This document shows positions 499-5,513 of a DNA stretch of 64,000 nt, piece by piece. The notes below the pieces were generated by a model. That model was not told where the DNA came from, made no database searches, and worked only from the letters and a program-made list of their open reading frames with translations. The stretch is from contig NZ_CP090095.1 in NCBI RefSeq assembly GCF_021391675.1, forward strand, positions 4,005,001 to 4,069,000. Reading direction: 5' to 3'. The position numbers and the translations under genes were made by a program. Positions within the stretch are counted from its first letter, which is position 1; the number at the start of each line of letters is the position of its first letter. The stretch comes from Neorhizobium galegae (GTDB lineage Bacteria > Pseudomonadota > Alphaproteobacteria > Rhizobiales > Rhizobiaceae).

Positions 499-3099
499 TT
501 ACGCAGCCTCGCTCACTGCCCGTTTGACGCGGAAGAGCAGCCGGTCGGAACCGGCACTCACCGCAACGGCCGATCCATCCGGGATCTGGCCGCCGAGGAT
601 CTGCTCGGCGAGCGGATCCTGCATGAACTTCTGGATCACCCGCTTCAGCGGACGCGCGCCATAGACCGGATCGTAACCCTTGTCGGCCAGCCATTCGCGG
701 GCGTCTGGACCGAGATCGATGCTGATCTTGCGCTCCGCCAGCAGCGACAGCAGCCGCTTCATCTGGATATCGACGATCGCCCCCATCTCGTTGCGCTTCA
801 GGCGATGGAACAGGATGATCTCGTCGACGCGGTTCAGAAATTCAGGCCGGAACGAGGCCTTCACGACGTCCATCACCTGCTCGCGCACGCTTTCGGAATC
901 CTCGCCCTCGCGAAGGGCGGTCAGGTATTCCGCCCCGAGATTGGAGGTCATGATGATCATCGTGTTCTTGAAGTCGACCGTGCGGCCCTGCCCGTCCGTC
1001 AGGCGCCCGTCGTCGAGCACCTGCAGAAGAACGTTGAACACATCAGGATGCGCCTTCTCGATCTCGTCGAACAGCACGATCTGGTAGGGCTTGCGCCGCA
1101 CCGCCTCGGTCAGCGCCCCGCCTTCCTCGTAACCGACGTAACCCGGAGGTGCACCGATCAGCCGCGCGACAGAATGCTTCTCCATGTATTCGGACATGTC
1201 GAGGCGAACCATCGCACTCTCGTCGTCGAACAGGAAGCGGGCCAGCGACTTGGTCAGCTCCGTCTTACCGACGCCGGTCGGACCGAGGAAGATGAACGAG
1301 CCGATCGGCCGGTTCGGATCCTGCAGCCCGGCGCGCGAACGGCGAACCGCACGCGAGACAGCCTGGACCGCATCGCCCTGGCCGACGACGGACTTTGCCA
1401 GCTCGTCTTCCATCCGCAGCAGCTTGTCGCGCTCGCCTTCCAGCATCTTGTCGACCGGAATGCCGGTCCAGCGCGACACCACATGGGCGATCGCGTCCGG
1501 GTTCACGACTTCCTGGACCATGGCATTGGTCGAGCTGTCCTGGGCTTCGGCCTCCACCAGGCGCTTTTCCAGTTCGGGGATCACGCCATAGGTAAGCTCG
1601 CCGGCACGCTGGAATTCGCCCTTGCGCTGGGCAGTCGCCAGTTCGTTGCGCGCCTCGTCGAGCTGCTTCTTGAGGTCGGCGGCAAGTCCGAGCTTCTGCT
1701 TTTCCGCCTGCCAGCGGGCCGTCAGTGCATCCGCCTGCTCTTCCAACGAAGTGACTTCGCCCTCGAGCCTCGCCAGCCGGTCGACCGAGGCACTGTCGGT
1801 TTCCCGCTTCAGTGCTTCGCGCTCGATCTTCAGCTGCATGATGCGGCGGTCGAGTTCGTCGAGTTCCTCGGGCTTGGAATCCACCTGCATGCGCAACCGC
1901 GCTGCGGCTTCGTCCATTAGGTCGATCGCCTTGTCGGGCAGGAACCGGTCGGTGATGTAGCGGTTGGAAAGCGTCGCCGCCGCCACCAGGGCCGAATCCG
2001 AGATGCGGACCTTGTGGTGCTGCTCGTATTTTTCCTTGAGGCCGCGCAGGATCGAGATCGTGTCCTCGACCGTCGGCTCGTCGACCACAACCGGCTGGAA
2101 ACGGCGGGCAAGCGCCGGGTCTTTTTCCACATGCTTGCGGTATTCGTCGAGCGTGGTCGCGCCGACGCAGTGAAGTTCGCCGCGGGCAAGTGCCGGCTTC
2201 AACAGGTTCGATGCATCCATGGCGCCGTCGGATTTACCGGCACCGACCAGCGTGTGCATTTCGTCGATGAACAGGATGATCTGGCCGTTTTCCGACTGCA
2301 CCTCGTTGAGCACACTCTTCAGGCGCTCCTCGAACTCGCCGCGATATTTCGCGCCGGCGATCAGGGCACCCATGTCGAGCGCCATCAGCTTCTTCTCCTT
2401 GAGGCTTTCCGGCACGTCGCCATTGATGATGCGAAGGGCCAGGCCTTCGGCGATCGCCGTCTTGCCGACGCCGGGCTCGCCGATCAGTACCGGGTTGTTC
2501 TTGGTGCGGCGGGAGAGAACCTGGATCGTGCGGCGGATTTCATCATCGCGGCCGATCACCGGATCGAGCCTGCCGTCGCGGGCTTCCGCCGTCAGGTCCC
2601 GGGCATATTTCTTCAGGGCCTCGAAGCCGGCTTCGGCATTGGCGCCATCGGCCGTGCGACCCTTGCGGATGTCATTGATGACCTGGTTGAGGCCCTGCGC
2701 CGTCAGGCCGGCCTTTTTCAATGTCGCGGACGTCGAGGCCGAGGTCTCGATGACAAGCGCCAGAAGCAGGCGTTCGACGGTGACGAAACTGTCGCCGGCC
2801 TTCTTGGCTGCCTCTTCCGCGGTCGAAAAAACCTTGGCGAGCGGCTGGGAGAGATAGATCTCGCCATTGCCGCCGGAAACCTTGGGAAGTTTGGCGAGTG
2901 CGGCGTCATTGGCGATGCGCGCTTCCTTGGCACTGCCGCCGGCGCGGTCGATGAGCGAGGACGCCATGCCCTGGTCGTCGTCGAGCAGAACCTTCAGCAC
3001 ATGTTCGGGCGTGAACTGCTGGTGACCCAAGGCCAAGGCCTGCGTCTGAGCCGACTGCAGGAAACCGCGGACGCGCTCGGAGTATTTTTCGATGTTCAT
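499..3099 (-). CDS. clpB: ATP-dependent chaperone ClpB
   Basis: ClpB is the hexameric AAA+ disaggregase that, with DnaK, pulls polypeptides out of heat-damaged aggregates in the cytoplasm. The 866-residue length is normal. Visible in order: the Clp N-domain repeats (residues about 1-150), AAA-1 with Walker A GEPGVGKT (about 206-213) and Walker [10 protein letters not shown], the coiled-coil middle domain rich in Glu/Arg/Leu (about 410-530) that separates ClpB from ClpA and ClpC, and AAA-2 with GPTGVGKTE (about 605) and the sensor segment [10 protein letters not shown]. The start at 3099 has a strong GGAGGT Shine-Dalgarno 8 bases upstream. It is transcribed towards the M23 gene and shares a terminator with it. 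Heat-shock control is expected for the family; I did not identify a convincing RpoH promoter. Confidence 0.97.
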
Positions 3100-3316
3100 T
3101 ATGGTACCTCCAGTGATCGACCCGCCCTTTATAAGGCACGGACCGATGATTGAGATTGAGCTCCCTCAAAGGCGAGCCCTGCCGAAGCCTCGGCGTTGCT
3201 GGAGATATGGTAAGCGGATTCTCGTGTTTAAAGTGTTCAGACGGTCAAAATCTGCGAGCGGAAACCTCACAAATTTTCCGCGTGACAATCCACAATCGAG
3301 CGAATACAGAAACCCC

Positions 3317-3391
3317 ATGTCTTTCACGTCCGCCTACGCCTCGCGATTTTATAGCTACCGCTTTTCCCAGCGGATGCGGGTCCGTGCGTAG
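3317..3391 (+). CDS. Phe/Tyr-rich leader peptide upstream of the DAHP synthase gene
   Basis: A 24-codon ORF ends 92 bases before the DAHP synthase start. Six of its residues are aromatic: Phe3, Tyr7, Phe11, Tyr12, Tyr14 and Phe16, with no Trp. That is far above expectation and matches the end products, Phe and Tyr, of the pathway the next gene opens. The Tyr14-Phe16 codons sit on the first arm of a chain of mutually exclusive hairpins ending in an intrinsic terminator (see the attenuator entry). The arrangement is that of pheA/trp-type leader peptides. The Shine-Dalgarno is weak (GAGCG about 14 bases upstream). I infer ribosome-mediated attenuation; I do not recall this leader being described for a rhizobial DAHP synthase. 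Confidence 0.72.
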   Translation: MSFTSAYASRFYSYRFSQRMRVRA

Positions 3392-3443
3392 CTGATTTCG
3401 ACGCAACGACATTCCCTCAAGCCGCTAGTCTACCTGGCGGCTT
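3358..3443 (+). promoter_or_regulatory. Predicted transcription attenuator of the DAHP synthase gene
   Basis: Four segments can pair in the classical 1:2, 2:3, 3:4 pattern. Segment 1 is CCGCT (3358-3362, inside leader codons 14-16), segment 2 is AGCGG (3369-3373), segment 3 is AAGCCGCT (3419-3426) and segment 4 is GCGGCTT (3437-3443). Pairing 3:4 makes the terminator; 2:3 would prevent it. A ribosome stalled at the Tyr/Phe codons would cover segment 1 and favour 2:3, which means read-through when aromatic amino acids are scarce. Pairings were found by eye and no folding energies were computed. Confidence 0.65.
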
Positions 3444-3447
3444 TTTC
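3419..3447 (+). terminator. Intrinsic terminator in the DAHP synthase leader
   Basis: A 7-bp stem, AAGCCGC (3419-3425) with GCGGCTT (3437-3443), has an 11-base loop and is followed by a T run continuing to 3446. It lies 37 bases before the GTG start of the DAHP synthase gene and after the leader peptide stop, where an attenuator terminator is expected. Confidence 0.72.
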
Positions 3448-3483
3448 AATTCCGCACGGTAGGATCAAACAGGAGCCATACCC

Positions 3484-4560
3484 GTGCTGAATGCCACTCC
3501 CGCCAATACTGTCGACGATCGCCGCATCGTCGAGATCACGCCGCTGACTATCCCCGCCGACATCATCGCCGAAATTCCGCGCAACGAGGCGGTCACCGAG
3601 ACCGTGACCCGGACGCGCGACACGGTCCACCGCATCCTGCATGGCGAGGACGACCGGCTGATCGTCGTCATCGGCCCCTGCTCCATCCATGACCCGATTG
3701 CCGCGCGGGACTATGCGGCCCGGCTGGAAGAGCAGCGACGACGTTTCGGTGGCGATCTCGAAATCATCATGCGCGTCTATTTCGAAAAGCCGCGCACCAC
3801 CGTCGGCTGGAAGGGCCTGATGAACGACCCGCATCTCGACGGCAGCTACCGGATCGAAGAGGGTTTGAGGATCGCCCGGCAGCTTCTTCTGGATATCAAT
3901 GCGACGGGCCTTCCGGCCGGCTGCGAATTCCTCGATACGATCACCCCGCAATACATTGCCGACCTCGTCAGCTGGGGCGCGATCGGCGCGCGGACGACCG
4001 AAAGCCAGGTACATCGCCAGCTGGCATCCGGCCTCTCCTGCCCGATCGGCTTCAAGAACGGCACCGATGGCGGCGTCGCGGTTGCGCTCGACGCCATACT
4101 GGCCGCCTCGCAGACGCACCATTTTCCGGCGGTGACCAAGGACGGCCGGGCCGCGATCGCCACGACGACCGGCAACGAGGATTGTCACGTCATCCTTCGC
4201 GGCGGAAGACAGCCGAACTACGAGGCGGCCGATGTCGAGGCCGTTTCCAGGGATGCCGCAAAACGCGGTTTGGAGCCGCGCATCCTCATCGATGCCAGCC
4301 ATGCCAACAGCGGCAAGGATCCGATGAACCAGCCGCTGGTCGTCAAAAACGTCGCGACGCAGATTGCGGCCGGCAACATGGCCATCAAGGGCATGATGAT
4401 CGAGAGCAATATCGTCGGCGGCCGCCAGGATCTGGTGCCCGGCAGACCTCTCGTCTACGGCCAGAGCATCACCGACGGCTGCATAGATTGGGAGACATCG
4501 GTCCTGACGCTCGAAGAGCTTGCCCGCTCCGTCCGCGATCGGCGCCAAACTCGGGCCTGA
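3484..4560 (+). CDS. aroG: Class I 3-deoxy-7-phosphoheptulonate (DAHP) synthase
   Basis: It catalyses the first step of the shikimate pathway: phosphoenolpyruvate plus erythrose 4-phosphate gives DAHP. The 358 residues match the AroF/G/H class I family, with the metal/substrate motifs IGPCSIHDP (about 62-70), KNGTDG (about 196-201) and the late IDASHANSGKDP (about 265-276). The start is GTG at 3484, supported by AGGAG at 3471-3475 with 8-base spacing. The upstream region holds a Phe/Tyr-rich leader peptide and an attenuator, so expression probably responds to aromatic amino-acid supply. Class I synthases are usually feedback-inhibited by Phe, Tyr or Trp; the leader suggests Phe/Tyr, but the effector cannot be read from sequence alone. 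It is followed by a bidirectional terminator. Confidence 0.95.
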   Translation: MLNATPANTVDDRRIVEITPLTIPADIIAEIPRNEAVTETVTRTRDTVHRILHGEDDRLIVVIGPCSIHDPIAARDYAARLEEQRRRFGGDLEIIMRVYFEKPRTTVGWKGLMNDPHLDGSYRIEEGLRIARQLLLDINATGLPAGCEFLDTITPQYIADLVSWGAIGARTTESQVHRQLASGLSCPIGFKNGTDGGVAVALDAILAASQTHHFPAVTKDGRAAIATTTGNEDCHVILRGGRQPNYEAADVEAVSRDAAKRGLEPRILIDASHANSGKDPMNQPLVVKNVATQIAAGNMAIKGMMIESNIVGGRQDLVPGRPLVYGQSITDGCIDWETSVLTLEELARSVRDRRQTRA

Positions 4561-4585
4561 AGCAGAAGGGCTTTGCTCACGGAAA

Positions 4586-4617
4586 AAGGCCGCCCGGTTT
4601 CCCGAGCGGCCTTCTTG
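4586..4617. terminator. Bidirectional terminator between DAHP synthase and DUF4167 genes
   Basis: An 8-bp stem, AAGGCCGC (4586-4593) with GCGGCCTT (4606-4613), carries a T-rich tail on the plus strand and an A5 run before it, which becomes a T run for the minus strand. It lies between two converging genes. Confidence 0.8.
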
Positions 4618-4642
4618 ATCTCGTTATACCAGCCCGTGGGGC

Positions 4643-5513
4643 TTATTCGGAAGCGGCATCAGCCAGGGCCGGCTGCGAGCCGTCGCCCGAGGCTTCGCCT
4701 TCGGAACCACCCTCTTCACCGGCGCCTTCGCCACGACGCGGACGACGCGGGCGGCTGCCGGCAGCGCGGCGGCGGCGCGGAGCGGCTTCTGCCTGTGCCT
4801 CTTCCTCGACCGCCACTTCGGCAGGCGTGCCTTCGATCACCGGCTGCGGACCGGAACCATCGACGACCGGAGCGACTGGCTGAGGTGCTGCGACCTGGGC
4901 CGGAACCGCTGCAACGGCCGGCTGTTCCGGACGATTTTCCCGGCGGGGGCGTTCACGCTGCTGGTCACGTTGTTCGCGGGGCTCGCGTTGTTCACGGGGT
5001 TCCCGCTGCTCGCGAGGCTCGCGTTGCTCCCGGGGCTGTTCCCGGCGGGGCTGCTGTTGCTGGACCTGCGGCTGGGGGAGCCTCGTCCATGGACGGCTGC
5101 TGCGAGTAACCATTGTCCTCGCCATCGCCATTGTCCATGTCGTCCTGATCCTGGACGTTGCCGTCCCGATCCTGATAGTCGCCACGGTTGTCGTGCTGGA
5201 ACCTGTCCTGCATCTGCGCCTGTGCGGCGGCAATGATGCGGTTATAGTGTTCGGCGTGCTGGAGATAGTTCTCCGCCATCACGCGGTCGCCAGAGCTCTG
5301 GGCGTCGCGGCCGAGTTGGCTATATTTTTCGGCGATATGCTGGGCGGTCCCGCGGATCTTCACATCCGGGCCGGAGCTGTCGTAGGTGCGGCTAAGAGGA
5401 TTGCCGCCCTTGCGGTTGAAGTTGTTATTTCCACCACCGCCGCCGCCGCCACTATTGTTATTGTTGTTACTGCCGCGACCTCGACCGCGTTTGTTCTGCT
5501 GTCCTGGCCTCAT
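4643..5513 (-). pseudogene. DUF4167 family protein, frame broken near 5080
   Basis: The N-terminal half (from the start at 5513) shows the conserved DUF4167 core: a Gly/Asn-rich basic leader, then the segment around TYDSSGPDVKIRGTAQHIAEK and the helix with AENYLQHAEHYNRI. These are hallmarks of a small alphaproteobacterial family. The frame then drifts into a Pro/Ala stretch and stops at 4992. The second half, with REQREPREQR repeats, an acidic/Ala segment and an RRRRAAGSRPRRPRR basic patch, lies in another frame ending at 4643. Dropping one C from a C5 run near 5080 joins both into one protein of about 290 residues, the length I expect. The Gly- and Arg-rich tails suggest RNA binding, an inference. 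A sequencing error is more likely than a true pseudogene. Confidence 0.8.

Follow-up and report, generated by a model that had tools for sequence, protein, structure and literature searches.

The window analyzed here is a stretch of 64,000 nucleotides from Neorhizobium galegae, corresponding to positions 4005001-4069000 of its contig. It contains a divergent intergenic region of 384 bp between a leftward gene, which we take from its own sequence to be clpB, and a rightward DAHP synthase gene (Table 1). Within this region a promoter-like pair of hexamers, a leader ORF, a terminator hairpin with a T run, a Shine-Dalgarno motif and a GTG start codon follow one another in that order. The product of the rightward gene scores 515.7 bits against TIGR00034 (cut-off 173.2) and 307 bits against PF00793, and the solved structure most like it is 5cks, a Phe-sensitive enzyme. 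The AroG equivalog model is not reached (516.9 vs. a cut-off of 568) and the model of the Trp-sensitive AroH subfamily is barely passed (465.2 vs. 463), so that these scores do not settle the feedback inhibitor. Named orthologues are found in N. vignae (97% identity), Neorhizobium sp. SHOUNA12A (95%), and N. galegae (93%). The host genome also has one class II DAHP synthase, located elsewhere than in the window, and no second class I gene was detected in it at E ≤ 0.001. In the genus-level loci (3092-5513 in the window) the DAHP synthase gene is flanked by what are presumably clpB and a DUF4167-type gene, neither of which was found within the flanks (mostly 1.5 to 3 kb) of the other loci. As the gene is present in just 11 of 57 genomes of the genus and these neighbors are absent from the flanks of other loci, the locus is patchy rather than syntenic.

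Table 1. Features of the clpB-DAHP synthase intergenic region and its flanking genes (positions in the window)
Feature	Position	Strand	Basis or remark
clpB (presumed)	499-3099	minus	upstream neighbor of the leader
Promoter-like pair: GTGACA (3282-3287), 17-bp spacer, TACAGA (3305-3310)	3282-3310	+	conserved relative to the leader ATG
Leader ORF, 24 codons and stop, MSFTSAYASRFYSYRFSQRMRVRA	3317-3391	+	ORF scan; coding-like variation in codons 2-9
Putative core sensing codons Phe11 (TTT), Tyr12 (TAT), Ser13, Tyr14 (TAC)	3347-3358	+	conservation in Rhizobium-type leaders
Segment 1 (CCGCT)	3358-3362	+	pairs with segment 2
Segment 2 (AGCGG), antiterminator 5' side, inside the leader ORF	3369-3373	+	covariation with segment 3
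Segment 3, terminator 5' arm and antiterminator 3' side (3422-3426)	3419-3428	+	covariation
Segment 4, terminator 3' arm (3434-3443) overlapping the T run (3442-3446)	3434-3446	+	hairpin and T run in 113/113
Shine-Dalgarno AGGAG of the DAHP synthase gene	3471-3475	+	beyond (3' of) the terminator
Class I DAHP synthase, AroFGH type, 358 aa, GTG start	3484-4560	+	TIGR00034, PF00793

A first-pass annotation of this DNA had described a 24-codon ORF with three Phe and three Tyr codons, and an independent scan found the same ORF at 3317-3391, with Phe at codons 3, 11, and 16 and Tyr at codons 7, 12, and 14. On both strands of the window there are two ATG-initiated ORFs of 12 to 30 codons that contain at least six Phe/Tyr codons, and this leader is the sole one followed, over the next 80 bases, by a terminator of -12 kcal/mol or stronger. 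No ORF of 12 to 30 codons with at least six Phe/Tyr codons appeared in ten 64-kb Markov sequences scanned on one strand as a chance control. The comparative evidence for the leader is stronger than this chance scan of the window.

Relatives of the DAHP synthase protein were gathered by tblastn (E ≤ 1e-30) at 131 loci, some of which duplicate other records (e.g., L017 and L098); counts of distinct sequences are used where stated. At 122 of the 131 loci, an automatic pick yielded a leader ORF that contains three or more Phe/Tyr/Trp codons and lies where it would be expected. No leader was seen at six betaproteobacterial loci (L070, L072, L083, L085, L087, and L088, the class of L070, L083, L087, and L088 being read from the genus or family name). 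At L058 a run of N covers the region after the aromatic stretch, and at L068, which appears to be the same contig as L154, the leader lies further upstream. L012 has an aromatic start, ATAYWYFSNG, immediately before the gene, with no leader stop or terminator visible, and this locus looks like a decayed or rebuilt attenuator. A hairpin with a T run was found in all 113 distinct leader regions, including L024, where the start had been picked at a later TTG. Aligning the upstream regions of orthologues, as had been suggested for checking the first-pass reading, thus shows that the aromatic codons and the stems are kept, with 122 leaders at 131 loci and covarying terminator and antiterminator pairs.

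The codons that are conserved within the leader were determined from 43 distinct Rhizobium-type leaders of 25 codons (stop counted). Codon 11 is Phe, encoded by TTT, in all 43, codon 12 is Tyr, encoded by TAT, in 42, and codon 14 is aromatic throughout (Tyr in 37, Phe in 6). Codon 13 is Ser in 20 leaders, Trp in 14, Tyr in 7, and Ala in 2. Codon 16 is aromatic in just 8 of the 43 and codon 3 is Phe in 11, and by this alignment Phe3, Tyr7, and Phe16 lie outside the conserved core of the leader. The first-pass annotation had noted that segment 1 overlaps the Tyr14-Arg15-Phe16 codons; codon 14 is conserved (Tyr or Phe in 43/43) and Phe16 is not. Phe11, Tyr12, and Tyr14 are more likely sensing codons than Tyr14-Arg15-Phe16. 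Mean column entropies at codon positions 1, 2, and 3 are 0.57, 0.45, and 1.08 bits over codons 2-9, 0.23, 0.41, and 0.24 bits over codons 10-14, and 0.41, 0.61, and 0.40 bits over codons 15-24 (43 leaders). Codons 2-9 are thus most variable at the wobble position and drift like coding sequence, and the core codons 10-14 vary little, codon 13 excepted. In codons 15-24 the amino acids drift and the wobble bases stay, as would be expected if the RNA (segment 2), not the peptide, were held.

Codon choice within the leaders is unusual for Phe. Over 98 distinct leaders, 161 of 217 Phe codons are TTT vs. 26 of 535 in the partner DAHP synthase genes, and in five genes of the window TTT accounts for 9 of 67 Phe codons. 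The contrast for Tyr is small, with TAT at 154/266 in leaders vs. 250/539 in the partner genes. The leu leader is a precedent for a slow or rare codon at a sensing position, and a slow or rare TTT at such a position here would fit that precedent. At 3344-3352 in the window, CGA directly precedes the TTT and TAT codons; it is present there in 42 of the 43 Rhizobium-type leaders, yet it makes up only 3 of 223 Arg codons in five genes of the window.

When the upstreams are aligned by their leader ATG, a common -35 hexamer resembling GTGACA or TCGACA and a common -10 hexamer resembling TATATN or TACATN become visible. The motif [GT][TC]GACA with a -10-like hexamer 16 to 18 bases downstream is present in 99 of 108 distinct upstreams, vs. 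0 of 2,440 random placements further upstream; this count leaves out L024, L067, and L073, whose start codons are uncertain. In the window the -10-like hexamer ends 6 bases before the leader ATG, a spacing that predicts a transcript start at or next to that ATG (A of ATG, 3317). A Shine-Dalgarno-like motif before the leader is absent in 106 of 110 distinct upstreams and present in 4. The leader transcript therefore probably starts at the ATG (3317) and is leaderless, as is that of Sinorhizobium meliloti trpL. A transcript start downstream of 3391 had been named as an observation that would speak against the first-pass reading; the conserved pair at 3282-3310 instead predicts a start at 3317.

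The terminator that had been claimed before the DAHP synthase gene was found at 3419-3446. It consists of a 10-bp stem (3419-3428/3434-3443) of -16.1 kcal/mol and a T run (3442-3446), begins 27 bases past the leader stop, and 40 bases separate its hairpin from the GTG at 3484. In the window and several close relatives the T run is short and interrupted (TTTTTCAAT) when compared with the majority of the other loci (e.g., TTTTTTGTT), and the terminator may leak for this reason. Four segments (3358-3362, 3369-3373, 3419-3426, and 3437-3443) had been proposed to pair as 1:2, 2:3, and 3:4, and their letters do pair in this way. The 1:2 hairpin is present in the consensus fold of 54 Rhizobium-type sequences, with one pair U-A in 44 and G-U in 8, and is missing from the consensus fold of the other 53 sequences.

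Covariation was assessed in an alignment of 38 representatives with 500 shuffles, without correction for relatedness. For the ten pairs of the terminator, standard pairing amounts to 88.9%, and 15 cells have changed on both sides (2.7 on average in shuffles; 0/500 shuffles as high). For the seven pairs of the antiterminator (2:3) the corresponding values are 88.0% and 12 cells (shuffled mean 4.9; 0/500 as high). The key antiterminator pair, 3369:3426, is G-C in 28 representatives, A-U in 7, and unpaired in 3, while the terminator partner of 3426 is an invariant G (C-G 28, U-G 10). Since this partner in segment 4 is always G, the change at 3426 tracks segment 2 rather than segment 4. L084 has an A-U exchange at a different antiterminator pair. 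Further pair types are not above shuffles (108/500 as high for the terminator, 337/500 for the antiterminator), and the number of antiterminator pairs changed on both sides is mildly above them (25/500 as high). The two outer antiterminator pairs are unpaired in 7 and 19 of the 38, the key pair is U-U in L060, L067, and L069, and another pair is an A-C mismatch in L071 and L078. When the antiterminator was slid by 3 columns, 9 cells changed on both sides were still counted, though with pairing at only 40%. The covariation signal in this alignment leans on few lineages or few evolutionary events. Segment 2 shows on average no pairing preference for its own segment 3 vs. those of other lineages. 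Neither this comparison nor mononucleotide shuffling of segment 2 clearly favored the antiterminator (mean z -0.5; p < 0.05 in 12.9% of 93). The covariation counts, made on a broader alignment, told more, although their outcome was mixed.

To follow the structure by ribosome position, the exposed RNA was folded up to, and excluding, the terminator 3' arm, with 12 bases shielded from the first base of the A-site codon. In the window, the predicted probability that segment 3 pairs upstream is 0.62, 0.60, 0.60, and 0.56 with the A site at codons 11-14, then 0.41 at codon 15, 0.32 at codon 16, and 0.01 at codon 17. It is 0.18 to 0.53 at codons 1-10, 0.02 to 0.53 at codons 18-24, and 0.14 at the stop. 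The predicted pairing of 0.56 to 0.62 at codons 11-14, against 0.01 at codon 17, agrees with the earlier proposal that stalling favors the antiterminator. Each of the 107 distinct regions that were scored shows more antiterminator pairing with the ribosome at the last core codon than at the stop codon; the stop value was set to 0 if segment 3 would be reached by a ribosome standing there. For the Rhizobium type the predicted antiterminator does not surpass dinucleotide shuffles (0.59 vs. 0.55; 0/46 at p ≤ 0.1), and in the other types the shuffles lend it partial support (0.61 vs. 0.51; 18/61 at p ≤ 0.1, 6 at p ≤ 0.05). As judged from these comparisons, the antiterminator is backed by covariation and placement, not by energy, and is the least secure feature of the proposed attenuator.

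Within the genus, the 11 genomes (of 57) that have class I DAHP synthase are also the ones that carry the element. The gene is found in 15 of 297 genomes of the family sample and 59 of 397 of the order sample. A covariance model of the element scores its own copy at 93.4 bits. The class- and phylum-wide searches with this model used strict filters and may miss weak elements. Class-wide, 14 of 385 genomes have full-length matches below E 1e-12. Of these matches, 13 stand before a class I DAHP synthase gene, and the remaining one (L147) is at the end of a contig. In the phylum (Pseudomonadota), 49 matches at E ≤ 1e-7 were obtained in 48 of 398 genomes, and 46 of them, L135 and L146 among them, precede class I DAHP synthase. 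The match at L253 precedes a chorismate mutase (pheA type) and that at L257 a Phe-tRNA synthetase (PheS type), while the partial match at L256 has neither DAHP synthase nor a pheA or PheS type gene downstream. Named carriers outside Alphaproteobacteria include three Dyella loci (L081, L091, and L094). Weak model matches (about 22 to 33 bits) in the host's own genome and in the class, many of which cover the terminator end alone, were not taken as elements unless their sequence had been inspected. Seven of the weak class matches were inspected (L156, L157, L158, L160, L161, L163, and L164), and an aromatic leader was found in L163 and L164 only; one further match was inspected from the remaining weak list, the place in genome G1001 that corresponds to L204.

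A class II DAHP synthase can also stand behind such a leader. In one alphaproteobacterial family (f108), 5 of 7 genomes have a class II copy that comes after a terminator-bearing leader region, the leader reading, for example, MRPAAGALYFARYFTRWYGPAA (L163/L172, L164/L202, L203, L204, and L205). The class II assignment rests on PF01474 at 697 bits, so the Pfam family differs from that of the usual partner, and the leader-bearing gene is a second copy. The combination of leader and terminator is absent from the other seven class II copies of f108. In a sister genome of this family (G785) the element is on a class I DAHP synthase gene (L144). A class-wide sample of 30 class II loci was taken from 112 genomes with a match, and the combination was absent from the 29 other loci. 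A few of the class II loci that lack it show a hairpin or a low-density ORF, and at L189 a short aromatic ORF (MRTIRYRDWPYWVIY) stands without a terminator. The class II DAHP synthase of the host (L001) was considered as a candidate for the same control and rejected, with no aromatic leader within 350 bases upstream and no terminator within 160 bases upstream.

The aroR-aroF system of Corynebacterium glutamicum, the closest known system, already provides a precedent for a DAHP synthase gene attenuated through a Phe/Tyr leader. As far as the accessible descriptions go, a leader peptide with Phe-Tyr-Phe precedes the DAHP synthase gene there (Neshat et al. 2014 per PMC11802643; PMC4046766), and expression goes up under Phe limitation, Tyr being without effect (PMC11802643). 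Both systems have a Phe/Tyr leader before a DAHP synthase gene; however, C. glutamicum belongs to another phylum and the leader here has a longer Phe/Tyr (often Trp) cluster. The likeness drawn here is one of leader and gene content. In S. meliloti trpL-trpE(G), the parts of the reports available to us describe a leaderless leader ORF that begins at the transcript's first base and attenuation by Trp supply (PMC7298713, PMC10117765). Like that system, the element in the window is a probable alphaproteobacterial attenuator leader, its leaderless start being predicted, but trpL senses Trp and controls trpE(G), whereas the window element would involve Phe/Tyr and DAHP synthase. The uORFC-13-1 motif upstream of Acholeplasma aroF, as summarized in the source, combines a predicted Phe-coding uORF that has at least one Phe residue with a terminator and a further base-paired substructure, in 24 unique sequences (PMC8632094). 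It likewise precedes a DAHP synthase gene, in another phylum. Attenuation has been proposed as a hypothesis for E. coli aroF(-tyrA), Shewanella aroF is listed as "Attenuator sensing tyr-tRNA," and a putative attenuator is given for Vibrio aroA-I-alpha(Y)-tyrA (PMC8632094, PMC2659441, PMC1173090). These gammaproteobacterial cases also concern class I DAHP synthase but are predictions or hypotheses, and the parts of their descriptions at hand mention no comparable leader peptide. Within the literature covered by our search, outside which most subscription journals lie, no alphaproteobacterial DAHP synthase attenuator was found described. Vitreschak et al. (2004) is said to be a comparative study of proteobacterial attenuators.

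The Rfam family Phe_leader (RF01859), of pheA and pheST types, likewise comprises a Phe-rich leader and a terminator. It differs in the regulated step, and the DAHP synthase leaders add Tyr and often Trp codons. At gathering score RF01859 matches neither the window nor L027, L146, L094, L240, and L164, while in the same scan Rfam called L253 and L257 Phe_leader. The DAHP synthase leaders at the five checked loci therefore lie outside Phe_leader at this score, and L253 and L257, found by a model built solely from DAHP synthase leaders, serve as an unplanned positive control. It is thus tempting to assume that the DAHP synthase, pheA-type, and pheST-type leader families may share more than a terminator. 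At a permissive threshold (E up to 5) the sole Rfam match in 3200-3500 was a CRISPR repeat at E 2.5, which we took as a chance match.

The ORF, the stems with their conservation and covariation, and the placement of the promoter are direct observations. From their arrangement we conclude that the element is very probably a ribosome-mediated transcription attenuator of the trp/pheA type placed before the DAHP synthase gene. As read from the DNA, the element has the sequence-level features of trp/pheA attenuators, the antiterminator being the least secure of them, and from these we infer its start site, stalling, termination, read-through, and response to amino acids through tRNA charging. Transcription would start at the leader ATG or no more than two bases from it, so that the leader would be translated without a ribosome-binding site. 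With charged tRNA-Phe and tRNA-Tyr plentiful, the ribosome would pass codons 11-14 and cover segment 2, the 3:4 hairpin would form, and transcription would end near 3446. If either charged tRNA were scarce, the ribosome would stall at Phe11, Tyr12, or Tyr14, covering segment 1; segment 2, once freed, would pair with segment 3, and the terminator would be blocked and the DAHP synthase gene transcribed.

Other explanations of the same features are far less probable. TnaC and SpeFL are leader peptides that arrest the ribosome when a metabolite is bound, and the peptide encoded here might itself arrest the ribosome on binding a free aromatic amino acid, so that the metabolite rather than uncharged tRNA would be sensed. 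The aromatic residues are indeed conserved as residues, and C-terminal motifs are recognizable in both the Rhizobium-type and the other leaders. However, codon 20 varies among Met, Lys, Arg, and Thr and codon 18 among Gln, Val, Lys, and Glu while their wobble bases are fixed, which fits RNA pairing, and arrest by excess product at the core codons would by our reasoning raise synthesis, the wrong sign; we consider peptide arrest very unlikely. An equally slim chance is given to the short transcript or peptide acting mainly in trans with cis control minor, as may be suggested by the predicted leaderless ORF and the predicted terminated RNA of roughly 130 nt, which recall rnTrpL/peTrpL as portrayed in the available parts of the S. 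meliloti reports (PMC7298713, PMC10117765). Against this, the position of 46 of the 49 phylum matches directly upstream of class I DAHP synthase and the occurrence of element and gene in the same 11 of 57 genus genomes are what cis control predicts. Action in trans could nevertheless occur in addition to cis control.

Still less probable is a hairpin switched by a protein or by a metabolite-binding RNA, the aromatic ORF being incidental. No Rfam family matches the window at gathering score, which leaves room for an undescribed aptamer, but the core aromatic codons are among the most conserved of the ORF, and no further structure appears in the consensus folds between the ORF and the terminator. 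The reading to which we give the least credence of all is that the hairpin, by its sequence a good intrinsic terminator, simply ends an upstream transcript; because the presumed clpB lies on the minus strand, no upstream transcript on the same strand is known that would need ending.

Aromatic amino acid synthesis begins with DAHP synthase, whose transcription in enteric bacteria is controlled by the TyrR and TrpR repressors. Our comparisons place the same device as in the window before the class I DAHP synthase gene of many other bacteria, and as far as we have seen this wide distribution is undescribed. A broader reading, which is attractive although we hold its full form slightly less probable than its negation, is that class I DAHP synthase would as a rule be controlled by one attenuator family that spans Pseudomonadota and is uncaught by Rfam at gathering score in the checked loci. 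With the mixed codon cluster of this family (typically Phe-Trp-Tyr-Phe-x-Tyr), one ribosome would integrate the supply of all three end products at the first step of the pathway, drift of the Trp codon would have made the Rhizobium type a Phe/Tyr sensor, and one alphaproteobacterial genus would carry the leader on a second, class II copy. Close relatives differ at codon 13 (Trp, Ser, Tyr, or Ala) and hence offer a clean test of how one leader weighs charged tRNAs. Rhizobia are predicted to make an RNA only some 130 nt long and a peptide of 24 residues, both of which annotation could easily miss. A conserved attenuator that accompanies class I DAHP synthase in alphaproteobacteria and in other proteobacteria would make sensing by ribosome stalling a common solution outside enteric bacteria.
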